Assembly (NCBI GenBank): GCA_944391625.1
Contig: CALXUG010000001.1
Location: 124,001-188,000 of the forward strand
Reading direction: 5' to 3'
Source of the DNA: an uncultured Clostridia bacterium
GTDB lineage: Bacteria; Bacillota; Peptococcia; Peptococcales; Peptococcaceae
Length of the DNA: 64,000 nucleotides
Shown: piece after piece, positions 4,217 to 23,871 of the stretch
Layout of the letters: each line of letters begins with the position of its first letter
Position numbering within the stretch: position 1 is the stretch's first letter
Program-made: the position numbers and the translations under genes
Notes under the pieces: generated by a model
What the model was told of the DNA's origin: nothing
The model's database searches: none
Seen by the model: only the letters and a program-made list of their open reading frames with translations

Positions 4217-4259
4217 TGATTATCACCTTCTTTTTTCAAATTTGCTTTCGGAATCCTCG

Positions 4260-4475
4260 TTAGTTGCCATTATCCGCTATTGCAGTAGCGTCTTGGATAA
4301 TGTCGGTTGGATCACAGTCCAGGGCTTTAGCAATACGGCCCACGGTTACGGGTTTGATGTTTTCACCCCGTCTGATTCGGGTTAGTGTCTGCGGTGAAGT
4401 CCCATTACGCAAATCCCGAAGGGACATACAACGCCGGGCCAACATCAGATCCAATTTCTGATTGTCAATTTTCAT
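4260..4475 (-). CDS. Cro-like XRE-family helix-turn-helix regulator
   Basis: A 71-residue protein made of a single helix-turn-helix domain (MSLRDLRNGTSPQTLTRIRR for the recognition region). It is the first leftward gene of the element's replication run and lies opposite the CI-like repressor gene, the classical switch arrangement. Its promoter (4518-4546) carries an operator in the spacer. It probably represses or balances the opposite promoter, as Cro or SaPI Str proteins do. The role is inferred from position and fold. Confidence 0.8.
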   Translation of the reverse strand: MKIDNQKLDLMLARRCMSLRDLRNGTSPQTLTRIRRGENIKPVTVGRIAKALDCDPTDIIQDATAIADNGN

Positions 4476-4495
4476 GGTTATTCGCTCTCCCTTCT

Positions 4496-4593
4496 AACCA
4501 AAATGGTTGTTTTCTATATTTTAGTACCATTTTGGTTGTTTGTCAATGGCGTTTCATAAATAATTTGACATTTTGGTTGTTTTGGTGTATTCT
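4496..4593. promoter_or_regulatory. divergent promoters with three operator copies
   Basis: Rightward promoter: TTGACA 4565-4570, 17-bp spacer, TATTCT 4588-4593, for the repressor at 4614. Leftward promoter: TTGACA (complement of 4541-4546), 17-bp spacer, TAAAAT (complement of 4518-4523), for the Cro-like gene at 4475. The motif TTTTGGTTGTTT lies in both spacers. A third copy with dyad AACCA-AAA-TGGTT lies at 4496-4508. Binding there would block both promoters. Confidence 0.85.
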
Positions 4594-4613
4594 AAAAAAA
4601 GGTAGGTGATAAA

Positions 4614-5111
4614 ATGAGCATTGGCGAAAATATCAGGCTTCATCGGAAAGAAAAAGGGCTGACGCAAGAGGAATTAGGCGAATTGGTTGGCATATCTGGG
4701 GTTGCCGTTATGCGATATGAGAAGGGCCAGAGGGAACCAAAACAAGAAACCTTGCTGAAGATCGCTAAAGCCCTTGGCGTTCACTTGCGTGATCTGTCGG
4801 ATAATTCATGGTTAGAAGAATTTGACCGGCAACACCCGGAAGCGGTTAAACAAATCAATGAAGGGTTGGCCGCAATTAAATTTTTGGAATCAATGGGCTT
4901 CACTGTTTCTGAACAGGTCACAAAATGGCATGATGAAGAAGTGGACGATGAAGGGCATACAGCACAAATACCGGATGAATCGGAAATCATTCTTTTCAAA
5001 GATGGACACACAGCCACTTTCACCCAAGCTGAATTTGAAGAACTGCAAAGCGGAGCCAAAGAAGCCATAGAAGGCCGGTTTTATAAGAAGGTCTTAGAAC
5101 AGCAAAAATAA
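4614..5111 (+). CDS. CI-like XRE-family repressor
   Basis: A 165-residue protein with an N-terminal helix-turn-helix (MSIGENIRLHRKEKGLTQEE, recognition helix around residues 26-40) and a C-terminal acidic part that is too short and lacks the Ser/Lys pair of a self-cleaving LexA/CI peptidase domain. Inactivation therefore probably needs an antirepressor or protein contact rather than RecA-stimulated cleavage. That is the SaPI Stl style, although this comparison is inference. GGTAGGTGAT precedes the ATG. It is transcribed away from the replication genes, in the same direction as the integrase. Confidence 0.85.
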   Translation: MSIGENIRLHRKEKGLTQEELGELVGISGVAVMRYEKGQREPKQETLLKIAKALGVHLRDLSDNSWLEEFDRQHPEAVKQINEGLAAIKFLESMGFTVSEQVTKWHDEEVDDEGHTAQIPDESEIILFKDGHTATFTQAEFEELQSGAKEAIEGRFYKKVLEQQK

Positions 5112-5216
5112 ACCCCGCTTACACCCCAATAGATGGGCTGTAAAGCAGGATTGAGGATAGGGGGATTGAGATAATCACAGACACCTTATAACGGCCCACA
5201 GAGGGCAAAAAAAAAG

Positions 5217-5247
5217 AATCCCCGGCACTGCAATACCGAGGATTCCG
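5217..5247 (+). terminator. hairpin after repressor gene
   Basis: GAATCC pairs with GGATTC, and an inner CCGG/CCGA part can extend the stem. It lies 105 bp after the repressor stop, within the 235-bp gap before the integrase. No T-run follows on the plus strand. On the minus strand a run of T follows (complement of the A9 stretch near 5208-5216), so it may mainly stop leftward transcription. Confidence 0.4.
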
Positions 5248-5346
5248 AAAGCACCACCACAAGAAACCTACCAAAGAATCAAGGGTGGACAGGTATATTA
5301 TAGCACCTGCCCTTGGTTCAATGCAACCATTTTCACGAAAGGACAG

Positions 5347-6369
5347 GTGATTATTATTAGAGCGCCAAACGGCTTTGGAACTGTGGCCCGGTTATCCGGG
5401 AACCGGCGTAGGCCCTTCATCATCAAGAAAGTGATTGGATGGAATGACAAGGGCCATCCAATTTATGAGATCATCGGCTATGCCGCCACACGGGAAGAAG
5501 GCTTGATAATCCTTTCAGAATACAACCGTGATCCGTGGGATGTTGACCGGGCCAAGATCACGGTAAAAGAACTATTTGAACTCTGGAAGGAAAAGAAGGC
5601 CCCCAAGCTGGGGGAATCTAACCGTTCATCTTTGTGTTCAGCGTTCAAGCATTGTTCAGCGTTGTGGGAAAAGCCCTATAAACAAATTCGATCCTACCAA
5701 ATGCAAGAAACTATTGACGGGTGCGGGAAGGGATATAGCACCCAAGCGGCAATCAAGAACCTTTGGGGCCATCTTGACCGGTTCGCTTTGGAAATGGACA
5801 TAATCAACCGGTGCTTTTCTGATCTTCTCACTTCTGATCCAATTCCACCAACCAGCCGCCTTCCATTCAGCAAGGATGAAGTCAAAAAGGTTTGGGCGCA
5901 TCAGGAACAGCCTTGGGTTGATACCGTCTTGATCCTGATATATTCCGGGTGGCGGATCAGTGAACTTCTGAATTTGAAGCCTGAAGATATTGACCTTCAG
6001 GCCGGGACGATGAAGGGCGGAACCAAAACCAAGGCCGGTAAAAATCGGCTGGTTCCTATTCATTCCAAAATCAGGCCATTGGTTGAAGCCCGTCTTGCTG
6101 AAAGTGGCCCCCGCTTGATCAGCTATAACGGAAGGGCTTGTTCCATAACGCAATACCGTATTTTTTGGGCGGATATTATGAAGGCCCTTGGAATGAACCA
6201 CACCCCGCATGAATGCCGCCACACCTTTGAAAGTCAACTGGACAGCGCCGGGGCAAACCGGAAGTGTATTGATCTTCTGATGGGTCATGTGTCCAAAGAC
6301 ACGGGAAACCGGGTCTATAATCATAAGACTTTGGACGAACTGAAAGCCGCCGTGGAACTGGTGGAATAG
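5347..6369 (+). CDS. tyrosine site-specific recombinase (integrase)
   Basis: A 340-residue integrase. The N-terminus carries an Arm-binding-like beta region, then a core-binding helical domain (about 75-155), then the catalytic domain. The catalytic residues are visible: Arg in GWRISELLNL, Lys in the beta-hairpin (GGTKTKAGKNR), HECRH, and the final LMGHVSKDTGNRVYNH with the Tyr nucleophile. The start is GTG at 5347. It is the last gene before host sequence, so it marks the right end of the element. It should catalyse insertion and excision. Its orientation matches the repressor and opposes the replication genes. Confidence 0.93.
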   Translation: MIIIRAPNGFGTVARLSGNRRRPFIIKKVIGWNDKGHPIYEIIGYAATREEGLIILSEYNRDPWDVDRAKITVKELFELWKEKKAPKLGESNRSSLCSAFKHCSALWEKPYKQIRSYQMQETIDGCGKGYSTQAAIKNLWGHLDRFALEMDIINRCFSDLLTSDPIPPTSRLPFSKDEVKKVWAHQEQPWVDTVLILIYSGWRISELLNLKPEDIDLQAGTMKGGTKTKAGKNRLVPIHSKIRPLVEARLAESGPRLISYNGRACSITQYRIFWADIMKALGMNHTPHECRHTFESQLDSAGANRKCIDLLMGHVSKDTGNRVYNHKTLDELKAAVELVE

Positions 6370-7195: not shown

Positions 7196-8563
7196 ATGAC
7201 AACACAAATTTTTCAGGTACGCTATAATCCCATGCAACTAACATCTATCCCTGCATTTATGAATATCAACGGCACATTTCGACAGGGTAGCAAAGATGTA
7301 TTTTTTCTGCGTCTGATTGGTTGTGTTACGCAAGAGGCTTTGCTGCAAGACATCGCATATATAGATGCACGAATGCAGCAAAATACAAGCAGCGTTCTGC
7401 GTATTCTGCAATTTCCTGATTTACCCACACTAGAGCAGCTGCCTTACGATATGATCCAATGGGAGTGTCCCCAGCAGCTTTTGCGTTACCATAGTCCATC
7501 CCCGCTGCTGCAGCAAACTATACAGCAGCATTTGGCAGCGTTACCCCAATTATATAAAACTTATTATCCAGCTTCCAGTCAATCCATGCTGAAAAACTTT
7601 ATTATAAAAATTTTGTTCTGGTGTGACCACTTCTTTCCAACATTGTTTACTCAATGGGATATCCGCCGTTCGGTAAAATTTATATGCAGCGGTCCGTTAA
7701 AAAAACAGGAATATTTATTCTGCTTTTTATTAACGCAGTTGGGCGTGGATGTACTCTACCTCAATCCAGAACAGGATTTGACACTGGAGCCTGCTTTACT
7801 GCAACTTTCTGCTCTGATTCAACAGCCACAACGTCTTGCTGTTGCCATCCCTGCGCCATCAACAAAAGCAATATGTAAAGAAAAACCACCTGTTATCCAA
7901 GCGGAACCAATACAAACACCGGTAGCATCAGCGGAGATGTCACCAACAGCCCGACAGCCGGCTTCTGCCATAAAACCGGACAGCGCTGCCGAAAAATCTT
8001 TTGAAGAACTGGCGATGTTGGCTTCTTCGGTGGTTATGATCGAAGTGTTGGACAACCAAGGAACCTGTTTTAAAACTGGCTCCGGTATTTTAGTTCATCC
8101 CCAGGGATACATTTTAACCAATTTTCATGTAGTTTCTGACAGCAGTCATTATCGCATCAACCTGGAAGGGGAAACAGAAAGTTATTCCTGTCATGATATC
8201 GTCAAGTACAACTATATTTATGATTTAGCTTTGCTGCGCATTGACCACCCCTGTCAGCCGTTGTCTGTCTATCAGGGAGAAAAATCATTGATTCGCGGAC
8301 AAAAAGTGGTGGCTATCGGCAGTCCCTTAGGCTTGTTTAATTCTGTTTCCGATGGTATTATTTCCGGTTTTCGCACCATTCATGATACCAATATGATTCA
8401 ATTTACAGCACCCACTTCGCCAGGCAGCTCCGGCGGTGCGCTGCTCAATATGCAGGGCGAAGTAATTGGTATTTGTACCGCTGGCATTCAGGAAGGGCAA
8501 AATTTAAATCTGGCAGTGGAACACCAGACCATTCTCTCCTTTTTAAGCGGCTTCCTTCCGTAA
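7196..8563 (+). CDS. YceG-like segment fused to trypsin-like serine protease
   Basis: A 455-residue protein with two parts. Residues about 130-200 (MLKNFIIKILFWCDHFF, then KFICSGPLKKQEYLFCFLL, then GVDVLYLNP) match the repeated YceG-like motif also present in the protein at 15306-17585. A Pro/Ala-rich linker (about 215-265) follows. Residues about 270-455 form an HtrA/trypsin-like protease with His311 (LTNFHVV), Asp343 (YDLALL) and Ser412 (SPGSSGG). No signal peptide or membrane segment is evident and no PDZ domain follows, so I expect a cytosolic protease. It faces the Ter operon across a shared hairpin. The protease call is firm. The YceG relationship is by eye. Confidence 0.85.
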   Translation: MTTQIFQVRYNPMQLTSIPAFMNINGTFRQGSKDVFFLRLIGCVTQEALLQDIAYIDARMQQNTSSVLRILQFPDLPTLEQLPYDMIQWECPQQLLRYHSPSPLLQQTIQQHLAALPQLYKTYYPASSQSMLKNFIIKILFWCDHFFPTLFTQWDIRRSVKFICSGPLKKQEYLFCFLLTQLGVDVLYLNPEQDLTLEPALLQLSALIQQPQRLAVAIPAPSTKAICKEKPPVIQAEPIQTPVASAEMSPTARQPASAIKPDSAAEKSFEELAMLASSVVMIEVLDNQGTCFKTGSGILVHPQGYILTNFHVVSDSSHYRINLEGETESYSCHDIVKYNYIYDLALLRIDHPCQPLSVYQGEKSLIRGQKVVAIGSPLGLFNSVSDGIISGFRTIHDTNMIQFTAPTSPGSSGGALLNMQGEVIGICTAGIQEGQNLNLAVEHQTILSFLSGFLP

Positions 8564-8761
8564 TCATCATGATTCCGTAACAAGTATTCCGATAACGATC
8601 ATTCTGATTTTTATGGTAGAAGCTTTAAATACTTTACTGAGGCAGAAAGTTTTCCCTGCCTCTTTTCTTTCTATTTTCCCAGTCATTGGCTAAAAAACAA
8701 GGAACCGATTGATCGCGTTATTTATAAAAACACTATATAACTTACAGTCTTAACAATAAAA

Positions 8762-8802
8762 GAGCGTTTACGCTATCTGATAACAAGATAACGCAAACGC
8801 TC
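8762..8802. terminator. bidirectional terminator between convergent genes
   Basis: A 17-nt arm (8762-8778) pairs with 8786-8802 at 15 of 17 positions, with A-rich flank on the left and TTTT on the right. It should end transcription of the protease gene (+) and of the HAD end of the Ter operon (-). The rest of the 258-bp gap (8564-8821) shows no gene. Confidence 0.75.
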
Positions 8803-8821
8803 TTTTCTATATTGCTTGTCT

Positions 8822-9586
8822 TCAAATATGGTGCTGCAAATATTGCAACATTTCCTCTGCCAGCAACCGTCCTTCGGCAACCAAATATTGATTGGATTGC
8901 CCAGAAAGATGACTGGCTAATTTTTCCGGCGCAAAAGCAAAATCAGCAGCCTGCAACATGGGTACATCAAACGTACTGTCTCCGGCAGCCCAAATGTAAC
9001 TCTGTGGATATTGCTGGCGAATCCGCTGTACCACCGCTCCCTTGGTCAAGGTACAGGGCAGGACATAAACCTTGGCACCATGCAGCAGTATCTGTACCTG
9101 ATTCAAATCCAGCACTGCTTCTAACTGCTGCCGTAACTGTTCCGGCACAGAACTTTTGGTATATAAAAACAAACCATCAATACACTTTACCGGCAATAAC
9201 CGATCTGTATGTTGTTCCAATAATACCTGCGCCTGTTGCAGTGCGGATTCAGCCGAAGCAATTCTATCCAAACTTTCCTGATACCATTGAGGTTCAATCC
9301 GACCATTTACCAGCAAAACTCCTCCATTAGCCATGAAAGCATAGGGAGGCTGCCATGCAGGCAATAACCGAATTCGCTGGTATTGAGCAATAGAACGGGT
9401 GGTGCAGGGAATCACCGGCAGCTTTTGCCGTACCAACTCCAAAAGCTGCTGTGATTTTCTGGTCATAAAAGAAATCTGCTTTCCTTCATACCATTCTACA
9501 TGTTCTCGCTGGACACCAATATCCCGCCGATGGGAATAGATTAGTGTATTGTCTAAATCAGTTAAAAGAAGCTGCAACAGGCACAC
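8822..9586 (-). CDS. HAD-superfamily phosphatase of the Ter cluster
   Basis: A 254-residue HAD hydrolase: motif I LLTDLDNTL near the N-terminus (nucleophile Asp, acid Asp two residues later), a motif II-type Thr (CTTRS), a Lys in the cap/linker region, and motif III/IV AAGDSTFDVPML. It resembles Cof/sucrose-phosphatase-like members with a C2 cap. A HAD phosphatase is a regular member of the Ter biosynthetic module, where it is proposed to remove a phosphate from a nucleotide-like intermediate. GTG (9586) or TTG (9577, GAGAGG 8 nt upstream) could be the start. It lies 22 bp after the ATPase gene and is the last gene of the leftward run. Confidence 0.85.
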   Translation of the reverse strand: MCLLQLLLTDLDNTLIYSHRRDIGVQREHVEWYEGKQISFMTRKSQQLLELVRQKLPVIPCTTRSIAQYQRIRLLPAWQPPYAFMANGGVLLVNGRIEPQWYQESLDRIASAESALQQAQVLLEQHTDRLLPVKCIDGLFLYTKSSVPEQLRQQLEAVLDLNQVQILLHGAKVYVLPCTLTKGAVVQRIRQQYPQSYIWAAGDSTFDVPMLQAADFAFAPEKLASHLSGQSNQYLVAEGRLLAEEMLQYLQHHI

Positions 9587-9607: not shown

Positions 9608-12271
9608 TTATGCCTGTTTTCTGTTGACAATCAGCTTACGAACTACATCCACTGGAATCATGGTAGCCGCTAACAGCAGCACCAATACCCAGCCTTGCCA
9701 ACCAAACGGTACACAACTAAACATAGCGCCAATCCACTGGAATGGTGCCAATGCCACTAAACCGGAGTTAACAATCAAGAATTGTACACCCAGAATAATG
9801 AAAAATACTTTCATAAAACCAGTGTTTTCATTTAGCCCTTTGAAAATGGCAAAGCCGTCATCACGGACATTAAAACCATTAAACAAAGCACTGGCAATAA
9901 ACAAAACAAAGTAAGCGCTGAGCAGCTGGGCTTCGTTATCAAAAAATCCACGGAATACATCCAGTTTCAGATAAGCAAAGCTCAACACAGTAAGCCACAG
10001 ACCCATGGTTACAATCTGCGCCATCATGGCCTTGCTGACAATGGCTTCATCTCTCTGCCGTGGTTTTTCCCGCATATATTTTTCCATAGCAGGTTCATTC
10101 CCCAACATAATAGCACCCAAGCCATCCATTACCAAATTAACAAACAGCAGATGGGTTACTTTCAATGGTTCTTCAATACCGAAGAACGGTGCTAACGCAC
10201 TGACTACAACAGCGGCAACGTTAATCACCAACTGGAATTTACAGAATTTCAGGATATTATGATAAATGGTACGGCCATACCAGATGGCATCTTTTATGGA
10301 TTTAAAGTTATCATCCAAAATTACAATTTTACCAGCTTCCTTGGCAGCCTCTGTACCGCTGCCCATAGCAAACCCTACATCGGCCCGTTTTAAAGCAGGA
10401 GAGTCATTTACACCGTCGCCAGTCATACCAACTACCAGATTCATTTCCTGACACAGCCGAACCATACGGGACTTATCAGTTGGCAGTGCACGGGCAATCA
10501 CACGAATTTCTGGAATGATGGCCTTTACTTCTTCGTCAGACATCTGATTCAGTTCCATAGAAGTCAAAGCGCGGTCTGTTGCTTCTTTCATCAATCCTGC
10601 ATCTTTCGCAATGGCAACCGCTGTTTCCAAACGGTCTCCAGTAATCATAACAACCTGAATGCCTGCCTGCTGCACTTCTTCAATGGCTTCTTTGGCCTCC
10701 GCACGCACATCATCACGAATACCAACCAGACCAATCAATACCAGATCGTCATGAATCATATTTTCCTGCATAGCTTGCTCAGAATATCCAAAAGCCAATA
10801 CCCGCATTGCTTTGGAAGCTAAACTATCAATTTTGCGGTTTAAGTCATCTAAGTTCAATGGCTGTTTTTCACCATTTTCGTCCAGATAGTATTTTGCACG
10901 GGCTGTCAATCGTTCCGGCGCACCTTTATAAACAGTTTTTCCCAAAGCGCTGATATACGCCTGACTAAATTTATTGGTAGAATTAAAGCCCTGAGACATG
11001 GTAACTGTGTATGTGGTATCACTATACAGCATATTGTAGGTATCTTCACCGATAAATTTCATCAATGCCTGATCGGTAGCATTCCCGCCGATAACATGAT
11101 GATTGGCATCATACATGGCTGCTGTATTTTTACAAATAGCAAAATCCAACAACCCTTTTACTTTGTTATGGTTGCGCAGTTCCTGTAGAGGGATTGTTTT
11201 GCCATCAGCAGTAAAAAATTCCACTACTTCCAGCATACCTTTGGTAATGGTTCCTGTTTTATCACTGAACAGAATATTTAAAGAACCAGCGGTTTCAATC
11301 CCTTCCGCTTTTCGTACCAATACGTTATGATCCAACATTTTACTGGTATTTTGCATCAACACCAGAGAAATCATCAAAGGCAGACCTTCCGGCACCGCAC
11401 ATACAATGATAACTACCGCCAAAGATACAGCTTCAATCATATCTTTCAAAATTGTAGCCCAGCCCAAAGCCAGATAAGCTTCTGGACCACCAGCGTTCAT
11501 GACAAAAAAGACTACATAAAGAAGAGCTATCACGATTGCACCCACATAACCAAATCGGGAGATTTGACTGGCCAGTTTGGATAATTTCACTTTCAATGGT
11601 GAATCCGGTTCATCTTCCTGCATTTCTTCAGCCATTTTACCCATCATGGTTGCTAAACCTACCCGGCGCACATCCAATACGCCTTCTCCATCAAATACAA
11701 TGGCGCCGCGGAACAGGGAATAGCCGTCCACAAAAGTATCCCCGGTGATCTCCTCACTCATCTGCACAGTCGGCTCTGCCGCTGTTTTCTTACATTCCTC
11801 TGTTTCCCCGTTCAATGCCGCATTGTTAACCCGCAAATCCCCATGAATCAACACACCATCGGCCGGAATTTTATCACCTGACTGCAACAGGACTTTATCA
11901 CCTACAACTACATCATCTACATCAATGACTGTAATCATACCATTGCGATAAACTTTGCACTGTTCTTTTTTGGTACTGTCTTTTAATTCACGATATTTTG
12001 TATCACTGGCCACGCCTGTTTTGGCAGAAACAACTGCTACGATCAAAACAGCCACAATGGTTCCTACCGGCTCATAAATTTCAGCATAGCCAAAGAAAAA
12101 CATCACAATCATCAAAGCGGCAATCACCAACAAAATTCTAATCATGGGGTCGCCAAATGTCTCTTTAAATTCCTGCCAAAAGGTGGTGGGTTCTGAATCC
12201 GGTATGACGTTGGAGCCATGCTGCGCACGAGACTGTTCAACCTCTTGGTCTGATAAACCTTTCCATTCCAT
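9608..12271 (-). CDS. P-type cation ATPase, type IIB (Ca2+-transporting)
   Basis: An 887-residue P-type ATPase. Motifs: cation N-domain at the N-terminus, TGE-type actuator region (NGETEE), PEGLPL in the membrane, SDKTGTITKG with the phosphorylated Asp, the KGAPE nucleotide-binding motif, TGDGVNDSPALKRADVG hinge, and a C-terminal block of four or more membrane segments. It should pump Ca2+ (possibly Mn2+) out of the cytosol. ATG 12271 is preferred over a TTG ten codons upstream because AGGA precedes it. A gap of about 110 bp separates it from terD. Its place in the run links cation balance to the Ter proteins, many of which bind Ca2+. Confidence 0.93.
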   Translation of the reverse strand: MEWKGLSDQEVEQSRAQHGSNVIPDSEPTTFWQEFKETFGDPMIRILLVIAALMIVMFFFGYAEIYEPVGTIVAVLIVAVVSAKTGVASDTKYRELKDSTKKEQCKVYRNGMITVIDVDDVVVGDKVLLQSGDKIPADGVLIHGDLRVNNAALNGETEECKKTAAEPTVQMSEEITGDTFVDGYSLFRGAIVFDGEGVLDVRRVGLATMMGKMAEEMQEDEPDSPLKVKLSKLASQISRFGYVGAIVIALLYVVFFVMNAGGPEAYLALGWATILKDMIEAVSLAVVIIVCAVPEGLPLMISLVLMQNTSKMLDHNVLVRKAEGIETAGSLNILFSDKTGTITKGMLEVVEFFTADGKTIPLQELRNHNKVKGLLDFAICKNTAAMYDANHHVIGGNATDQALMKFIGEDTYNMLYSDTTYTVTMSQGFNSTNKFSQAYISALGKTVYKGAPERLTARAKYYLDENGEKQPLNLDDLNRKIDSLASKAMRVLAFGYSEQAMQENMIHDDLVLIGLVGIRDDVRAEAKEAIEEVQQAGIQVVMITGDRLETAVAIAKDAGLMKEATDRALTSMELNQMSDEEVKAIIPEIRVIARALPTDKSRMVRLCQEMNLVVGMTGDGVNDSPALKRADVGFAMGSGTEAAKEAGKIVILDDNFKSIKDAIWYGRTIYHNILKFCKFQLVINVAAVVVSALAPFFGIEEPLKVTHLLFVNLVMDGLGAIMLGNEPAMEKYMREKPRQRDEAIVSKAMMAQIVTMGLWLTVLSFAYLKLDVFRGFFDNEAQLLSAYFVLFIASALFNGFNVRDDGFAIFKGLNENTGFMKVFFIILGVQFLIVNSGLVALAPFQWIGAMFSCVPFGWQGWVLVLLLAATMIPVDVVRKLIVNRKQA

Positions 12272-12380
12272 AATAAACTCAATTCCTTTTCTGTTATTCA
12301 ATGTAATAAGTTAGAGATAGAAAAAGAAAAAACAACCTGGTTTCTTCTTTTCTGTGCAATACTGCAATCTGTTTGCTTTA

Positions 12381-12968
12381 TTATGCAAATCGGTTTGCCA
12401 GCTGACCCAATTGAATATCCTGAGTACCACTGCCGATAGCATTGAACTTCCATTCATCATTATGACGATATACCTCACCAAAAATCATAGCAGTCATACC
12501 GCTGTAATCATCTGTCAGGTTATATCTGCACAGTTCCTGATCGTTTCTGGCATCCATGATCCGAATAAATGCATTTTGAATCATACCAAAATGCTGTTTG
12601 CGCTTATCAGCCTGATAGATATTCACTACCAATACAATACGGTCATATTCTGCGGGTACTTGCCCCAATTCAATCATAATCTGTTCATCATCACCAGCGC
12701 CAGCACCGGTCAGATTATCACCCATATGCACAACTGTATTAGATTTATGTTTCAGATTGCCAAAATAAACAATGTCTTCTGTACCGCGCAGTTTGCCTTC
12801 TTTCAAAACAAAAGCAGAAGCATCACAGTCAACAGATTGCGATTTTGCAGCAAAAAAACCTTTTTTCTGCGGAACTTCATCCCAACCCAAACCTACAATC
12901 ACTTTGTTCAGACCGGCATTATCTTTCGTTAAACTAACTTTTTGACCTTTTTGTAAGCTTACTCCCAT
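12381..12968 (-). CDS. TerD-family protein, divergent copy
   Basis: 195 residues, beta-sandwich TerD family, the most divergent of three tandem copies. The N-terminus [20 protein letters not shown] is typical. The first Ca2+-ligand segment, usually DLDTSAFLL, is here VDCDASAFVL and follows an insertion (QKKGFFAAKSQS). The second acidic loop [15 protein letters not shown] is mostly conserved. TerD proteins are cytosolic Ca2+-binding proteins implicated in tellurite, phage and envelope stress resistance. The C-terminus lacks the YQGGLAALC motif of the other copies (SGTQDIQLGQLANRF instead), so this paralogue may have a different partner or metal affinity. Confidence 0.92.
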   Translation of the reverse strand: MGVSLQKGQKVSLTKDNAGLNKVIVGLGWDEVPQKKGFFAAKSQSVDCDASAFVLKEGKLRGTEDIVYFGNLKHKSNTVVHMGDNLTGAGAGDDEQIMIELGQVPAEYDRIVLVVNIYQADKRKQHFGMIQNAFIRIMDARNDQELCRYNLTDDYSGMTAMIFGEVYRHNDEWKFNAIGSGTQDIQLGQLANRFA

Positions 12969-12980
12969 AACTGTTCCTCC

Positions 12981-13562
12981 TTAGTCTACGTCTACACCAT
13001 AATTTGCACACAATGCTGCCAAACCACCTTGGTAACCACTGCCAATGGCATTGAACTTCCACTCGTCATTATGACGATATAATTCACCGAACACTATCGC
13101 AGTTTCAATAGAAAAGTCTTCTCCTAAATCATAACGAATTAATTCTTCCCCATTGTCTTTGTTGTAAATACGAATAAAAGCATTGGCTACTTGACCGAAA
13201 TTCTGCCGTCTGGCTTCCCCATCATAAATGGTTACGGTAAAAGCAATACGACTGATATTTGCCGGTATCAATGACAAATCCAATACAATCTGCTCATCAT
13301 CGCCATCACCGGCGCCGGTCAGATTATCACCCAGATGGGTAACTGCACCACTGGCATGCTGTAAATTTCCGTAAAACACAAAGTCACCGCTGTTGCTTGC
13401 TTTTCCTGCTTCTGTCAGCAAGAACGCCGCTGTGTCCAAATCAAAAGCGCCGCCTGTGTCATATCGGTTGATATCCCAACCCAGACCTACTACAACATCC
13501 TTTAATCCCGGATTTCCCTTTGTCAAACTAACTTTTTGTCCTTTTGTCAAACAAACACCCAT
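12981..13562 (-). CDS. terD: TerD-family Ca2+-binding stress protein
   Basis: 193 residues. It has the canonical TerD features: [16 protein letters not shown] start, [20 protein letters not shown] with the first acidic cluster, [17 protein letters not shown] as the second, and the terminal [20 protein letters not shown] followed by GGLAALC. Spacing to its neighbours is 12 bp on both sides, so it is co-transcribed with the other two copies. The family folds as a beta-sandwich binding two Ca2+ ions. How it protects cells is not settled. The symbol is given on family level only. Confidence 0.95.
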
Positions 13563-13574
13563 TTTTTATCTCTC

Positions 13575-14156
13575 CTATTCTGCATCGATTCCATAATTAG
13601 CGCATAATGCTGCCAGGCCGCCCTGATAACCGCTGCCAATGGCATTAAATTTCCACTCCCCATTATGACGGTACAATTCGCCTACAACCATAGCTGTTTC
13701 AATGGAGAAATCTTCACCCAAATCGTAACGAACCAATTCTTCATTGGTTTCGGCATTCACCAGACGAATAAAAGCATTGGATACCTGTCCAAAATTCTGC
13801 CGTCTGGATTCTGCATCATAAATAGTTACGGTAAAGGCAATACGGCTGATATTTGCCGGTACTTTTGGCAATTCAACCATAATCTGTTCATCATCCCCAT
13901 CTCCTGCGCCAGTTCGATTATCGCCCAAATGAGTTACTGAACCGCTGGGATGTTCCAAATTACTGTAAAATACAAAATCAGTGTCGCTGGTTACCTTGCC
14001 ATTGTCTGCTACTAAAAAAGCAGATGTATCCAAGTCAAAATCTACACCGGAATCAAACTGATTAATGTCCCAGCCCAATCCCACCATCACATTTTTTAAG
14101 CCTGGATTTGTTTTCGTTAAATCTACTTTTTGTCCTTTTGTTAAACTAATCGGCAT
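13575..14156 (-). CDS. terD: TerD-family Ca2+-binding stress protein
   Basis: 193 residues from ATG 14156 ([20 protein letters not shown]), which has AAAGGAG 9 nt upstream; two in-frame upstream codons are worse starts. It is very close to the copy at 12981-13562, including [27 protein letters not shown] (Arg instead of Leu in the loop) and the [16 protein letters not shown] end. The three copies probably arose by tandem duplication, this pair most recently. It lies directly after telA (15 bp), a frequent TelA-TerD neighbourhood. Confidence 0.95.
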
Positions 14157-14171
14157 ATCCATCAACTCCTT

Positions 14172-15302
14172 TTACAAATTTGTATGGTACTGTTTATTAA
14201 AATCCTCTTTGATGGCATTTAAACGAGCCTGGTCTTCCAGACGCTGTTGTTTGGCATTTTCCTGAATTTGTCGTGTTTCCTCAATACCGGATACGATGGT
14301 CCTCCAGGTTGTTTCCAATGTTTCAATCTTGATAGAACTGCCGGAAGCCATAGCCGCTGTTGCTTTGGACTGTTCCACAGTATTGCGGGCATTTTTTAAC
14401 AGCATTTCATTGGTTTTTTCATCCAATGCCGACATAGCCTCAGCCTGTATTTTCTGCCGTTTTAATAAAATAGCCTGCGCCAATGCCTGTTTGAAAACCG
14501 GCAGTGTGATGATAAATGCTGAATTGATCTTCCGCACCAGATTCATATTACTAAACTGCATGGTTTTAATCATAGGAATAGACTGAATGGCTACATTTTC
14601 TGCAATGCGCAGATCATGGGTACGCTGCTCTAACATGGTTTTTGCCTGTTCTAAAGCGGTCAGTTCAAACTGAATGGACTGGTCACCGCTGGCATATAAG
14701 TCCTGCTGACGCTGTTCAATGTAAGCCTCCAGTTCACCAATTCCCTGTTCCCCTGCCAAAATATATTTGACCAACTCATGATAATAATTGACATTGGACT
14801 GAAACAAATCTTCCAATTTTTGATTGGAGGTTTTGATTTCTGCTTCATATTGTTTCAGCTTAACATAAATTTTATCTACTTCGTCTCCCATTGTTTTGTA
14901 TTTATCCAATATTTTATCCAGCTGTTTGCGCAAACCACCGAACAATTTTCCAAAGAATCCCGGATCATCTTTAATTTCATCAATATCAAAACGATCCATA
15001 ATTTTTGCCAGCAGATTGAGCATCTCACTGGATTCATCAATCTGATTCATATTCATACTGTTCAATACCACATCAGATGTTTTTGAAATCTGTTCCGCAA
15101 CAGCGCTGCCAAAGGTGACAATGGTATTCAAATCATCTACCACAATCTGACTTGTCAGCGCATCTACCTCAGCTGAATTTACATATTTTTGATTTAACTG
15201 CGCTCTGTCTGCCGCAATATCATAAGGCTCTACTTCCAATTCAACAGTAGCAGGTACAGCAACAGACGAATTACTGTTTTTTTGCCCAAAATCAATGGCC
15301 AT
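14172..15302 (-). CDS. telA: TelA-family toxic anion resistance protein
   Basis: A 376-residue, almost entirely helical protein. The middle has the TelA hallmark series: FFGKLFGGLRKQLDKILDKY, then a coiled coil (KIYVKLKQYEAEIKTSNQKL), a central NYYHELVKYILAGEQGI segment, and a C-terminal helix bundle (LPVFKQALAQAILLKRQ). TelA proteins occur with TerD in Ter loci and are associated with resistance to tellurite, bacteriocins and cell-envelope stress. The mechanism is unknown. No membrane segments are seen. It begins 3 bp after the YceG-like stop, so the two are translationally linked. Confidence 0.95.
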   Translation of the reverse strand: MAIDFGQKNSNSSVAVPATVELEVEPYDIAADRAQLNQKYVNSAEVDALTSQIVVDDLNTIVTFGSAVAEQISKTSDVVLNSMNMNQIDESSEMLNLLAKIMDRFDIDEIKDDPGFFGKLFGGLRKQLDKILDKYKTMGDEVDKIYVKLKQYEAEIKTSNQKLEDLFQSNVNYYHELVKYILAGEQGIGELEAYIEQRQQDLYASGDQSIQFELTALEQAKTMLEQRTHDLRIAENVAIQSIPMIKTMQFSNMNLVRKINSAFIITLPVFKQALAQAILLKRQKIQAEAMSALDEKTNEMLLKNARNTVEQSKATAAMASGSSIKIETLETTWRTIVSGIEETRQIQENAKQQRLEDQARLNAIKEDFNKQYHTNL

Positions 15303-17807: not shown

Positions 17808-18800
17808 ATGACTCGTATTCTTTCACAAGTTCCACTGCCTCTGGCCTATCATGTAGGGGCACTTTTATACACACCGGCCAATCGAATTTCTGTGGCAGAT
17901 TCCATTTGCCATCAGCGTTTCGGTACGCAATTTTCTCTGGCGCTGTGCCTGGAGGACACTATTAACGATGCTTATTTGCATCAGGCCGAACAACAAACCA
18001 TTCAAACCATACAAACCATTTACCAAAAAAGACAGCAAGAAGAATTCTATCTGCCTCGGCTATTTATCCGCCTGCGTAGTCCGGAACAAATATCCACACT
18101 ATTACAGCCAATGGGACAAGCTGCTGAACTGCTGACCGGATTTATTTTTCCTAAATTTTCTCTGGAAAATGCATCTGCTTATCTGGCAGCTTTGGAAGAT
18201 GCAAATCATGTCTCCCGTCCCAAACCTTTTTTCATGATGCCTGTCTTGGAGGACGCCTCTTTACTTTCCTTGCGTTCCAGAGGTGAAACATTGGAGCAGC
18301 TAAAGGATTTACTGCAACCTTATTATCAGCAGGTACTCAATATTCGCGTGGGCTGCAATGATCTGTGCCATTTATTTGGTCTGCGCCGCCAACTTCATCA
18401 AACCATCTATGATATTTTGCCAGTAGCCAATATTCTCAGCGATATTCTTACCGTTTTCCAGACCGATTACGTAGTATCTGCGCCGGTATGGGAATATTTT
18501 CAGGATGAAACCGAACTATGGAAAACTGGATTAAAACGGGAATTAGAATTAGATTTACTCAATGGCTTTATTGGCAAAACAGTCATTCATCCGTCTCAAA
18601 TCGCGGTAGTCAATGAGGGGCTCAAAGTTTCGCCTGCCGACTATGCCGATGCCTGCCAAATTTTAAACTGGAATCCCGATAATCCTTATTATGTATCCGG
18701 TGGCGCACAGACACAGCGCATGAATGAATACAAGACCCATCACCGTTGGGCTCAGCGCATTCTATTGCTGGCAGAATATTACGGCATCAGACAAGAATAG
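17808..18800 (+). CDS. HpcH/HpaI aldolase, citrate-lyase-beta-like, Ter-associated
   Basis: A 330-residue TIM-barrel lyase-like protein. Visible elements: GALLYTPANR at strand 1, LCLEDTIND (substrate/CoA-side acid), PRLFIRLRSPE, FPKFSLENA (Lys of the fourth strand region), a long middle with NIRVGCNDLCHLFGLRR, and the C-terminal GKTVIHPSQIAVVNEGL, which is the CitE-type GKxxIHPxQ motif. This family member is standard in the Ter biosynthetic module, where it is thought to make or break a C-C bond in a nucleoside-like product. It reads away from the YceG run and shares a 222-bp intergenic region with it. The substrate is unknown. Confidence 0.88.
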   Translation: MTRILSQVPLPLAYHVGALLYTPANRISVADSICHQRFGTQFSLALCLEDTINDAYLHQAEQQTIQTIQTIYQKRQQEEFYLPRLFIRLRSPEQISTLLQPMGQAAELLTGFIFPKFSLENASAYLAALEDANHVSRPKPFFMMPVLEDASLLSLRSRGETLEQLKDLLQPYYQQVLNIRVGCNDLCHLFGLRRQLHQTIYDILPVANILSDILTVFQTDYVVSAPVWEYFQDETELWKTGLKRELELDLLNGFIGKTVIHPSQIAVVNEGLKVSPADYADACQILNWNPDNPYYVSGGAQTQRMNEYKTHHRWAQRILLLAEYYGIRQE

Positions 18801-19002: not shown

Positions 19003-22000
19003 TTATTTTGCCATGATACTCTCCAACCGCACCAAACGCTGAATATCATCTTCTACATAAACAGAGGCAGCAATATTTTTATCATATTGCCCACAGTTGC
19101 CACGATCCGGACAGCGAGGAGAAATAATCGCTTCTCCCAAACGGCCTAAAGTCAACCGACGACCAAAGGTTTTCTGATATTCTTCTTCTAACACCTGTAA
19201 GATATCATGCACATTCTGCAAACAGGTCAGAGAAAAATAATATAATGCATCCCGCTGCACATCCCGCATATAGCTGGGCACTACATAAGGAAGAATAAAA
19301 TTGACAGACGGTATCAGATTGGCATCTGTTTCTTCCTTCCGGGCTACCATATCTCCGCCAATAAACGGATACAATGTCGATTCCACATACCACCCCCGCA
19401 AACGAGGCAAGAAATAAGCGCTTTCTACCGGACAGTTCCGCACACCAATCAAATCCCTGCCCCGCGCAGACAAAATGCCCACTACCATACGATCCACCTG
19501 TACCTGCTCCTGTTCTAAAATAGGCCAAAGTCCCTGAATTCGATAGCCTTTGTGCAGCAAATCATCTACCAAAATCACCGGACGATCAAAGGATTTTATG
19601 GTACGCACCTGATTTTCCAGAGTAGAATAGAATGGGAAATTTTGAATACTAAATTGTTTAATGGCCCCATCATATACCTTTTCACTGTGCAGTGTTTTGG
19701 TGACAGTATTAGGCACCACCATACCGCGCAAAATTTTACCAAAAGGCACACACATATTTTTTCCTAACTTGCGTACCGGCAACGGCTCATTTGGCACATG
19801 ATTGGCTCGGGTAATTTTTTGCAGCATTTTATGGTGCATAATCCCCGCATCAATAGAAAGCACCAGATTGCCCGGATACAGCGCAGTCATAATTTCTTGC
19901 AGTCTATGATGGCTTTGCTCTACTACAGCCAGTAATCGTTCATTTCGATTAAATGGCTCTTTGATTGTTGTCTCTATATTTTTTAACAGTGTCAGCGGGG
20001 AGCGCATATCCACCAGATACAGAACTACATCTTTCTGTTCCAACGGTGCTGGTAAAAATCCCTGCCGCTGCAGTACCGATTCCACCATCTCATCGGCAGC
20101 ACCATAATAAATACTGTATCCATAATCCTGCTCCAGATAATGACTGATTGTTTCTGTCAGCAATAATTGTTCACCGTTTTTGATTTTAATATCGGGAAGC
20201 CGATAGATACCAGTTAATACAGCAATCTTACCAAAAATTCGTTTGCGCAGCCATTCCACAACATGGGCATCCTGAAAAACACCATACATATCTGTTGTTT
20301 CCAGAGTATAGGACAGTGCAAAGGCTACAATCCGCTGCTCCTGGCTGCTATCCTTCAACAAAGTCAGCATAGCATTAGGCTTTTGCCAATGCTCAGATAA
20401 AATGTCCATTAAATCATCCATCTGAGAAAAACTGACCAATAGCTGATAAACCTCCTGCGAACTCTCTTCGGTTACAAAATCAAATTTCATATTTTTTGCC
20501 TGCAAAATTGGCTTATATTGGGGCTCTCGCAAATACAGTCCATAATGATAAATATAATTCTGCGCCAAAGGACTGATCAAATTGGAAATATCCCGGTTAC
20601 AGTCGATATTTTCCCGAATACGGGTCGAACTGATATCTTCCAAATAAGTGGGCAACGTTAAATAAATCAAATCACCCTGCACAGAATTCCGCACAGTTTG
20701 TTCAATACGTTGTTCTAACTCCGCAGTGGTTTCGGCATCCATACCCTGCGCCCGCCGAAACACAATATGATTATAAGAATGGATGGAGCCCGGTTTCGGT
20801 TCTTTTTTGTAGGAAGATGCATTTAAAATGACATCACTGCCCACTACAATATAGACTTCTTTGTCAGGGAACAAATCATGCAGCCTAGCCATGTCTCCAT
20901 CATTGGCCAAATTGATAGGAATATCGTCAGGAAACAGATATACGTTTTCCTCATCGGCCACCGACATAACAATAATTTGCCGTCTGGTCATCCGCGGCTG
21001 TGTTTTTTTCGACCATGAAAATTCATCTAATGCCAGATAAACCTGAAAACCCAGATTGCGGATTTCCTGCACAATGCCTTTATGGCTGGACGAGAACGGG
21101 TCAAAAGTGCCGGGGAAAAAAGCAATTCGCTCTATTTCAGGAATATCAAACCGACCATACTCCATCAAATAATCAGAAATAAACCGATAAATATGGTTCA
21201 AGGAACCGGCCCGATTAAAGAACGACAACCCATTCAGTTCTTTGTCATGAATCAAAATCAACATTCGTTTATAAATTAAATAGAAAATCTTATATTTTTC
21301 TTCCAACGATAACCGCACAGAACCAAATAATTGATGACCCAGCACAATAAAGGCTTCCGAATTTACTTCTTCGTCATAACTGGATAAACCACTGAGCAGC
21401 ATTCCCAAAATTACTCGGCGTCGTTCTTCAATGACAATATCATCTTCTCCAAACCGCTGTTGATAAGCCGGATAATATTCTAAAATAACACCCAGTGTAT
21501 TTAATGCCACCGATACCACGCGATTATTGGCATTGCGCAGCAATTTCTGGATATCCTGAATAATTTCATCCAATTCTTGCGGCTGTAAATACAAGGCAAT
21601 CTGTCCTAAATATTCAGGAATATATTTGGAAAACTCATATTCACCAATTTCCAGCCCTTTGGTCAGCTCAATTACCAACTCATTACGTTCTTCCAGAGAT
21701 AATAGCGGCGCAATAGAAACCAGCCCCTGCCCTGCTCTGTGACGCACGCTAATCCGTTCACCCACTTTTAAAATATTAGATAAGTGGGCGGCCACCTGCA
21801 GCAACGAAATAGAATGACGTTCCCGCGCAACTTCCAGTAAAAAATCAATATTAGTCAATTTGAGCATCCATGGCGTAGCAACCTTTAAATTTTCCAAAAA
21901 CAGTTCTGATACCGCCTGCTGTTCTTCCGTCCCGGATAATTGCAGTTTCTCAGCCAGTTCATCAGCACCAAGCTGCTTGTAGATCCTCATCAGATTATAT

Positions 22001-23871
22001 CGAAAACCGACCGGCATCTGTGCAGTTTGCATTTCAGACAGCATAGTCAATACAGCGTTCTTTAAACTGAGATACAAATGGGAACAACCGGAAAGATATT
22101 GCAAAAAGCGCAGCGCCGCTGCTTGTAATTCTAAATTGGGCCGCCGTAAAATAGCCTGGGTGAATTCAACCAGCTCCTGCAGCTGAAAAGGCTCACAGAG
22201 CTGCAACGGTACCGAAATCAAAGTATCCATTAAAACAAAGCCTGTTTCATCATCCCAATGGGCTTCGTGATAATAATACAGCAGAGCATCTAAATATTGA
22301 TAACTTTCTTCTTCCGAACTGTTTTCCAATACAACCGTCACAACATTTTTCAGGGTATACCCCAGCCACCGCTTATGCCGTTCTGTAATCTTATGATCAG
22401 GCATAATAATCATGTTGATATATTTCTGCCATAAGGTAAGACTGGTGGTCTGGCCTACCGGCAGCGTTACACCATCAGGCAACGCCTTGCGGTTGATCTC
22501 ATCGTATCGTACAATAATCTTCCCCATCAATGCAGCAGCCTGCCGCCGAATATCCCCTTCCCGATGCATCAGAAGTTCATAAAGAAAATTCAGGGTCATA
22601 CTTTTCTGCCGCTGGGTCATGTAAGTGTAATATTCCTCAAAAATATGAATATACGCCCTTGTATTTTTCCAGTCCTTTTCACTTCTGGCTGCTTCCAGCA
22701 AGGTACCGAAAGAAGTTTCAGTATTTAAAAACTCCATCAGCCAGATATTATGGCGGATAGCCAAAAATTTGAAATTGACAATGGCTTCCTGAGCATCTAC
22801 CAACGCAATGTCTTTTGGCTGCACCGGCTGCAGTTCTCTGCTGCTCAAATCAATATTGACGCCAAGACTGCACATATAATCTTCAAAATCCTTCAGTTTG
22901 GCATATACATATCGGTAGCGCCGTTCTTTGGCAGCATCTACATGCTCCAGTTTACTGAGTATGATATGAAAAGAATCTTCCAAAGAGAAAATACCCATTT
23001 TTTCTTTTGGTGCATCACATTCTTCCCGACGCACACGAAAATCTGCATAAATCAAAATCAGGGATTCCAACGGTAAATTTTCCAGCTCTAAATCCCAAGT
23101 GGAATGATTGACTGCAATATGGGCAATGGTAGGCATATTTTTCTCTTCAAACCATTGACCGGTGTAATAATAATGCAAATGGGGCATCCGTTTCATTTCC
23201 GCAGCTTTGCAGCCAAATTTGCCAATATCATGGCCAACTGCTGCTCCGGAAACCAACGCCAGATTAACAGGTACACCGGCTTCTTTTAACTGTCTGGCCA
23301 CATGCATGGCAACATAATGAACACCGGCAATATGACTCAGTGTATTGAAATAAAAAATCTCTTTACCAATATACATCAATTCATACAGATAGAGCTTACG
23401 AAAATAATATAAAAATCGTTCATATTCTTCTTTTATCACATGATCCGGAAAGGTTTCCAAATCTAAAAATTCAAAATCGCTGAACTGATCAAAGGCTTTA
23501 TGCATTCGCATATAGTCCAGCATACATCGCAAAACACGAATAAAAAACTGCACACCATTCTGAAACTGTTCTGGAAACTCCGTCAGTACACTATCTGGAT
23601 AAGACCAGCTGATAATATACCAATAGCTATACTCTAACCAACCCTGTTTTGGTTCCTGCTGATACCAGTGCGGGCATATTTCTCGGCACAACGATACCAC
23701 ATCGGCACAATTCCATGGTTCCGGCTGCTCCAATAAAGCAATCACACCATATTTTAATTCCTCCTGCTGTGTTTCCGCCCGCCGCAATAATAACTGAGGC
23801 TGCTGAAGAAAAAATTCCGATATCACATTCTGTTCAAAAATTACTTGTATCTCGTCAACAATCTGTGTCAT
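19003..23871 (-). CDS. 1,622-residue multidomain Ter-associated enzyme (HD, helical repeats, nucleotidyltransferase, GNAT-like, PRTase)
   Basis: Order by residue: 1-170, helical, unassigned; about 175-320, HD-type phosphohydrolase (H180, GHDIGK at 213-218, later His and Asp ligands); about 400-905, alpha-helical HEAT-like repeats; about 914-1115, NadD/cytidylyltransferase fold with GTFDPFSSSHKG (921-932) and ISSTRIR (1090-1096); about 1125-1280, GNAT-like region (GEQLLLTETI, then RQGFLP); about 1310-1515, phosphoribosyltransferase with PRPP loop VILVDDLLHKGYR (1432-1444). A Cys-rich end RCPDRGNC may bind metal. In the HxGH motif the first His is Ser (SSSH). PRTase, HD and nucleotidyltransferase activities suit synthesis or salvage of a nucleotide-like compound. 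The GNAT call is tentative. The gene is a single unbroken frame. Confidence 0.8.
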   Translation of the reverse strand: MTQIVDEIQVIFEQNVISEFFLQQPQLLLRRAETQQEELKYGVIALLEQPEPWNCADVVSLCREICPHWYQQEPKQGWLEYSYWYIISWSYPDSVLTEFPEQFQNGVQFFIRVLRCMLDYMRMHKAFDQFSDFEFLDLETFPDHVIKEEYERFLYYFRKLYLYELMYIGKEIFYFNTLSHIAGVHYVAMHVARQLKEAGVPVNLALVSGAAVGHDIGKFGCKAAEMKRMPHLHYYYTGQWFEEKNMPTIAHIAVNHSTWDLELENLPLESLILIYADFRVRREECDAPKEKMGIFSLEDSFHIILSKLEHVDAAKERRYRYVYAKLKDFEDYMCSLGVNIDLSSRELQPVQPKDIALVDAQEAIVNFKFLAIRHNIWLMEFLNTETSFGTLLEAARSEKDWKNTRAYIHIFEEYYTYMTQRQKSMTLNFLYELLMHREGDIRRQAAALMGKIIVRYDEINRKALPDGVTLPVGQTTSLTLWQKYINMIIMPDHKITERHKRWLGYTLKNVVTVVLENSSEEESYQYLDALLYYYHEAHWDDETGFVLMDTLISVPLQLCEPFQLQELVEFTQAILRRPNLELQAAALRFLQYLSGCSHLYLSLKNAVLTMLSEMQTAQMPVGFRYNLMRIYKQLGADELAEKLQLSGTEEQQAVSELFLENLKVATPWMLKLTNIDFLLEVARERHSISLLQVAAHLSNILKVGERISVRHRAGQGLVSIAPLLSLEERNELVIELTKGLEIGEYEFSKYIPEYLGQIALYLQPQELDEIIQDIQKLLRNANNRVVSVALNTLGVILEYYPAYQQRFGEDDIVIEERRRVILGMLLSGLSSYDEEVNSEAFIVLGHQLFGSVRLSLEEKYKIFYLIYKRMLILIHDKELNGLSFFNRAGSLNHIYRFISDYLMEYGRFDIPEIERIAFFPGTFDPFSSSHKGIVQEIRNLGFQVYLALDEFSWSKKTQPRMTRRQIIVMSVADEENVYLFPDDIPINLANDGDMARLHDLFPDKEVYIVVGSDVILNASSYKKEPKPGSIHSYNHIVFRRAQGMDAETTAELEQRIEQTVRNSVQGDLIYLTLPTYLEDISSTRIRENIDCNRDISNLISPLAQNYIYHYGLYLREPQYKPILQAKNMKFDFVTEESSQEVYQLLVSFSQMDDLMDILSEHWQKPNAMLTLLKDSSQEQRIVAFALSYTLETTDMYGVFQDAHVVEWLRKRIFGKIAVLTGIYRLPDIKIKNGEQLLLTETISHYLEQDYGYSIYYGAADEMVESVLQRQGFLPAPLEQKDVVLYLVDMRSPLTLLKNIETTIKEPFNRNERLLAVVEQSHHRLQEIMTALYPGNLVLSIDAGIMHHKMLQKITRANHVPNEPLPVRKLGKNMCVPFGKILRGMVVPNTVTKTLHSEKVYDGAIKQFSIQNFPFYSTLENQVRTIKSFDRPVILVDDLLHKGYRIQGLWPILEQEQVQVDRMVVGILSARGRDLIGVRNCPVESAYFLPRLRGWYVESTLYPFIGGDMVARKEETDANLIPSVNFILPYVVPSYMRDVQRDALYYFSLTCLQNVHDILQVLEEEYQKTFGRRLTLGRLGEAIISPRCPDRGNCGQYDKNIAASVYVEDDIQRLVRLESIMAK

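Follow-up and report, generated by a model that had tools for sequence, protein, structure and literature searches.

A YceG repeat joined to an HtrA-type serine protease recurs in Bacillota genomes that mostly carry Ter genes

The window analyzed here is a stretch of 64,000 nucleotides from an uncultured Clostridia bacterium of the Peptococcaceae (assembly GCA_944391625.1, contig CALXUG010000001.1, positions 124,001 to 188,000). It holds a locus of the Ter stress system, a term that we use for YceG, TelA and TerD together with the biosynthetic genes for a C-C bond lyase, PRTase and StiP, and beside it an open reading frame with an ATG start (7196–8563, forward strand) that encodes a 455-residue fusion of a YceG repeat with a serine protease domain (Table 1). 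A preliminary description of this DNA had placed the frame in a Ter locus, and Pfam bears this out by identifying TelA, three TerD proteins, a P-type cation ATPase, YceG and the C-C bond lyase. The fusion gene is convergent with the Ter genes and lies outside their operon. A promoter scan returned 3 hits where 5.5 were expected. In the 1622-residue protein at the far end of the locus, the C-terminal part resembles a phosphoribosyltransferase signature, as judged by eye only. Left of the locus (2243–6369) lie a DUF5906/D5_N primase-helicase-like gene, a Cro/C1-type regulator and a phage-type integrase, so that the fusion sits near an apparent integrated element.

Table 1. Features of the fusion gene and of the neighboring Ter locus, in window coordinates.
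Feature	Position	Strand	Evidence
YceG repeat (PF14266), fusion residues 1–205	7196..7810	+	Pfam E 5.3e-14; profile against stand-alone YceG; N-domain model
Low-conservation linker, fusion residues 206–265	7811..7990	+	identity 18%; block pLDDT 26–38
HtrA/S1C-type serine protease domain, fusion residues 266–455	7991..8560	+	Trypsin_2, triad, Foldseek
Catalytic codons	His311 8126–8128; Asp343 8222–8224; Ser412 8429–8431	+	read from window sequence
Terminator-like hairpin, strong, 20-pair stem, between the convergent fusion and HAD genes	8759..8805	-	scan
HAD-IIB family hydrolase	8822..9586	-	S6PP 2.6e-5, Hydrolase_3 1.7e-4; NCBIfam HAD-SF-IIB 9.6e-9, below its cut-off
P-type cation ATPase	9608..12301	-	Pfam E1-E2_ATPase 1.4e-34, Cation_ATPase_C 4.4e-32
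TerD	12381..12968	-	PF02342 E 5.8e-76
TerD	12981..13562	-	PF02342 E 2.1e-82
TerD	13575..14165	-	PF02342 E 1.6e-88
TelA	14172..15302	-	PF05816 E 1.9e-99
Stand-alone YceG, three YceG repeats, 759 aa	15306..17585	-	PF14266 E 1.5e-108, 3 stretches
C-C bond lyase, Ter biosynthetic module	17808..18800	+	PF15617 E 2.3e-98
1622-aa protein, nucleotidyltransferase region	19003..23871	-	CTP_transf_like 1.3e-6; HEAT 0.0064, HD 0.02, both below cut-off

We analyzed the N-terminal part of the fusion using family profiles and a domain tree. The Pfam family YceG_bac (PF14266) matches residues 93–198 with 52.9 bits against a curated cut-off of 25, and a profile built from ten fusion N-termini matches 20 of 20 stand-alone YceG proteins, with full-sequence E-values ranging from 2.9e-62 to 3.7e-4. 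As judged by a control of 1000 shuffled sequences, in which the best E-value was 9.3e-4, the weakest of these matches (o77_L137, 3.7e-4) is not distinct from noise; the better ones align across most of residues 1–205. The preliminary description had reported a YceG motif at residues of about 130–200 and had proposed a profile comparison of the N-terminus as a check. Both the Pfam family and the ten-copy profile give significant similarity, and the likeness therefore stands, but not its extent: because the profile match spans nearly the whole N-terminus, we assign residues 1 to about 205 to the repeat.

The YceG residues N134, W142, E172, G183 and D185 are kept in 19/19 fusion copies, and the window protein and each of the ten fusions compared retain the positions common to all repeat classes (R/K39, G42, K161, E/D172, G183 and D185). 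In a YceG-domain tree of 60 rows, for which the domain boundaries of the stand-alone proteins were set by hand, the ten fusion copies group in a single clade (100/99 support) that lies among the non-terminal repeats. The stand-alone Bacillus-type YceG (PF14266) occurs in the same loci and carries a repeat homologous to that of the fusion; it contains two or three repeats and lacks a protease, whereas the fusion joins a single repeat of the non-terminal type to a protease. In Escherichia coli, the name YceG denotes the lytic transglycosylase MltG, which is distinct from the Bacillus-type YceG of Ter loci. An MltG-type identity was rejected for the fusion, as the MltG family is absent from its Pfam matches at E <= 1.

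Modeled in isolation, the YceG domain has a predicted alpha/beta fold (pLDDT 86, pTM 0.87). The VIA fold comparison gave a best Z of 8.7, to ORC/AAA+ chains, where values of 7–8 are typical background, and the best Foldseek E-value was 0.025; neither the PDB nor the viral libraries held a fold match to the model at E <= 0.001. A sequence search of the PDB with the domain returned a single match (E 0.92), and a Walker A motif is absent from the YceG domain in all 19 fusions.

The C-terminal part matches Trypsin_2 over the curated Pfam cut-off (residues 295–426, E 7.1e-25). Its nearest solved sequences are the RsgI9 S1C and HtrA proteases, and its nearest folds are Deg1, DegS and RsgI9 S1C (Foldseek, E about 1e-15). 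The triad of His311, Asp343 and Ser412, described from the outset as intact, is invariant across 19/19 aligned fusion copies. The fusion shares fold and catalytic triad with the HtrA/Do and S1C proteases (DegS, Deg1 and the RsgI9 S1C domain, 7sjy) but differs from HtrA/Do in having no PDZ domain, signal peptide or anchor and in carrying a YceG repeat in front instead. TIGR02037 (HtrA/Do) scores 106.8 bits against a cut-off of 416, with the match confined to the protease region, and the Pfam scan of the protein, taken to E <= 1, gave no match to any PDZ family. Kyte-Doolittle windows revealed neither a hydrophobic N-terminus nor a membrane segment in the fusion, and no membrane-type hydrophobic segment in any copy; the original remark that PDZ and secretion signal are missing thus proved correct. 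An ordinary secreted or membrane HtrA was rejected on the grounds that PDZ, a full-length TIGR02037 match, and a signal or membrane segment are all lacking.

The PADLOC model for the retron type XI RT-protease also matches the fusion (E 7.7e-17), at residues 266–449 only; the match starts at model position 325 of 506, the preceding part of the model is unmatched, and no reverse transcriptase is found among the Pfam matches of the fusion protein at E <= 1. Membership in retron type XI was rejected, since only the protease part matches.

Between the two domains lies a linker of 32–158 residues with a mean pairwise identity of 18% over the 19 copies, and the protease domain is much more conserved than the YceG domain (61% versus 30% mean pairwise identity). 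In the full-length model (pTM 0.49) the blocks within residues 221–260 have mean pLDDT values of 26–38, and the domain arrangement is not reliable. As judged from sequence, the protein is one YceG repeat followed by a variable linker and an HtrA/S1C-type protease without PDZ domain, signal peptide or membrane segment. Because it has neither a PDZ match nor a membrane-type hydrophobic segment, it is probably cytosolic.

The same architecture was found in 35 Bacillota genomes, counted without duplication. Both domains were checked in 28 of these, and in G640, G644, G647, G652, G654, G660 and G664 the protease part is assumed from the frame length. The first ten copies are those of the window, UBA7185 (Peptococcaceae), two Lachnospiraceae MAGs, Bacillus ndiopicus, three Lysinibacillus genomes, Desulforamulus aeronauticus and a Desulfotomaculum MAG. 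In a phylum sample, in which at most 4 candidates were scored per genome, at least 2/398 genomes match both parts among the matches listed. In a class sample the N-terminal profile matches 3/46 genomes, one of which (G001) has ordinary YceG only. The fusion is present in 2/9 genomes of the genus of the Desulforamulus genome and in 10/195 relatives of the Lachnospiraceae MAG G436, and a fusion-type domain is present in 19/151 relatives of Lysinibacillus parviboronicapiens, where 12/12 retrieved proteins have both domains. No fusion was met outside Bacillota in a plasmid tblastn search (896 records matched, each over less than 80% of the query) and an insensitive contig scan with two short peptide patterns.

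In the protease tree the 19 fusion copies fall in one clade (99/90), which also holds L188 of genome G591, a protease without a YceG domain. The trees of both halves fit a single origin of the fusion, after which the YceG domain was lost once, in this YceG-less member. G591 has TerD and is absent from the 24 relatives with a PF14266 match. The L188 protease (L188:8242–9237) and a related one at L173:8939–10639 share about 110 additional C-terminal residues that have no Pfam match.

The second check proposed with the preliminary description concerned an association of homologues with Ter genes, and such an association was found at the level of both genomes and loci. TerD is present in 18/19 mapped fusion genomes, the exception being G434 (UBA7185, an 82% complete MAG), and a separate YceG gene in 17/19, missing in G434 and G573; hence G434 has neither gene detected, and G573 has TerD with no separate YceG detected. 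Among the Lysinibacillus parviboronicapiens relatives, where a second match, lying in a frame of roughly 550–600 residues, was counted as a separate YceG, all 19 genomes with a fusion-type domain also have one; 3 of these belong to the mapped 19 as well, which brings the joint total to 33/35. Any profile match occurs in 39/151 genomes of this group (hypergeometric P of 1e-13, ignoring relatedness). Similarly, 10/10 fusion genomes among the Lachnospiraceae MAG relatives have TerD against a base rate of 28/195 (hypergeometric P of 8e-10, ignoring relatedness). Because the fusion genomes are related, both P-values overstate the association. PF14266 itself occurs in 15/398 phylum genomes and in 24/195 Lachnospiraceae relatives; as only 10 of the latter have the fusion, it is dispensable for the Ter system. 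Ter loci without the fusion in the same genome group (for example L192, L194, L195 and L197) likewise indicate that it is optional.

Within the retrieved stretches, Ter or Ter-biosynthetic genes lie near the fusion in 11/19 mapped copies. The typical order in Lachnospiraceae is PRTase_2, StiP-PELOTA, C-C bond lyase, fusion, sometimes rhomboid, YceG, TelA, TerD, cation ATPase and HAD. In six loci of this family (L057, L165, L167, L168, L170 and L171) the fusion immediately precedes YceG or is separated from it by a single gene, and in L166 it is divergent from the adjoining YceG. The remaining 8/19 loci, those of UBA7185, B. ndiopicus, three Lysinibacillus, two Desulforamulus-type genomes and G573, have no nearby Ter gene. 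In the three Lysinibacillus loci (L059, L061 and L063) the fusion is found downstream of an M23 peptidase gene and near a prkA-type gene (PrkA and M23 assigned by Pfam in L061), and near what we take to be spoVR. In the Lysinibacillus group, the fusion and the separate YceG share one contig in 16/19 genomes, about 70–125 kb apart.

The protease probably works with the Ter system, because the fusion recurs in relatives that mostly carry Ter, and it is reasonable to infer, as was suggested at the outset, that the Ter machinery either triggers it or is its target. In ordinary HtrA proteases the regulatory place is held by PDZ domains. We propose, with confidence only slightly above even, that the fusion is a cytosolic HtrA-type protease in which a YceG repeat has taken that place, and that it serves as an optional Ter accessory brought to, or switched on at, a Ter assembly. 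The repeat would dock on or sense what YceG itself works with, which could be YceG, TelA or the metabolite of the system; it would thereby bring the protease to the Ter assembly, or activate it there, during stress, and the protease might then cut a component of the system or damaged clients. A broader reading, in which YceG repeats would form an addressing or signal-reading code of Ter, and Ter activation, by docking or through a Ter-made metabolite, would switch on cytosolic HtrA-type proteolysis, is more tentative and in our estimate rather doubtful.

The chief rival is an effector gated by a ligand: once bound to the nucleotide-like signal that has been proposed for the biosynthetic module of Ter, the YceG domain would free the protease to act on essential proteins, in a dormancy or anti-phage response. 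The accessible text of PMC7824862 sketches Ter systems with signal-making enzymes, signal-binding domains and sub-membrane parts acting against phages; TerB and TerD are its possible sensors, and TelA is placed in the sub-membrane structures. The resemblance of the fusion's protease domain to the corresponding part of retron type XI effectors and the conserved polar set kept in the YceG domain point the same way. We nevertheless consider it unlikely that the fusion is such an effector, as the protease half is well conserved, which is less typical of fast-evolving effectors, and as the YceG, TelA and TerD proteins examined gave no PADLOC match.

Next in weight is a general cytosolic quality-control protease that borrowed a YceG domain no longer serving the Ter system. 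The 8/19 loci away from Ter genes would suit this reading, including the Lysinibacillus copies beside spoVR and prkA, as would G434. Against it stand the Ter genes found elsewhere in the fusion genomes and L188, whose loss of the YceG domain coincides with the absence of a PF14266 match in G591, and we regard it as quite improbable. If the protease were nonetheless an ordinary housekeeping enzyme, the finding would shrink to a lineage-specific domain fusion. Finally, the YceG match in the window protein extends over just 106 positions of the Pfam model, as might be the case for a chance similarity or for an assembly or frameshift artefact. Such an origin is scarcely credible and is refuted by the genome census, the shuffled controls and the Pfam cut-off: the same open architecture is found in independent genomes, and most YceG proteins score far above the shuffled sequences.

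If the Ter-accessory reading holds, the fusion suggests that a module of another kind can stand in for PDZ in controlling HtrA-type proteases; the broader code reading, if true, would mean that an HtrA protease is controlled without PDZ and would tie Ter signaling directly to protein destruction. To our knowledge, the role of YceG, TelA and TerD in Gram-positive bacteria is still unclear. A serine-to-alanine trap of the YceG-linked protease should retain its targets and so show what the Ter/YceG system touches. For the strain treated in PMC9604106, the accessible part of that paper states that function must be demonstrated.

A link between proteases and Ter is not new, because a TerD-trypsin protein and StiP precede the fusion described here. 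The former, TerD-Tryp YP_273108.1 of Pseudomonas syringae, is listed in the accessible text of PMC2605481 from 2008; set beside the fusion by that published description alone, it likewise places a domain of the Ter system in front of a trypsin-like protease, but the domain is TerD, not YceG, and the protein is a single uncharacterised one. StiP (PF11202), which Pfam describes as a cysteine protease related to Ter, is encoded in the operons of the fusion (in L057 and, by similarity to the L057 protein, in L056, L165 and L168–L171); it belongs to an unrelated family, is of cysteine type by annotation and is followed by a PELOTA domain. The combination had been called undescribed in the preliminary description. 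For YceG with trypsin this holds within titles and abstract openings, a scope in which no description was found and which leaves outside the central 2012 Ter paper, where the fusion may be mentioned; the related TerD-trypsin idea, by contrast, had already appeared in 2008.

A rhomboid-family protease gene (L057:8351–8941, PF01694 E 2.3e-21) directly adjoins YceG in one Lachnospiraceae locus, and a rhomboid gene also lies beside YceG in L165, L168, L193, L196 and L197, with or without the fusion. In L200 (7682–10480), two genes encoding about 460 residues each lie between TelA and TerD in the Ter locus.
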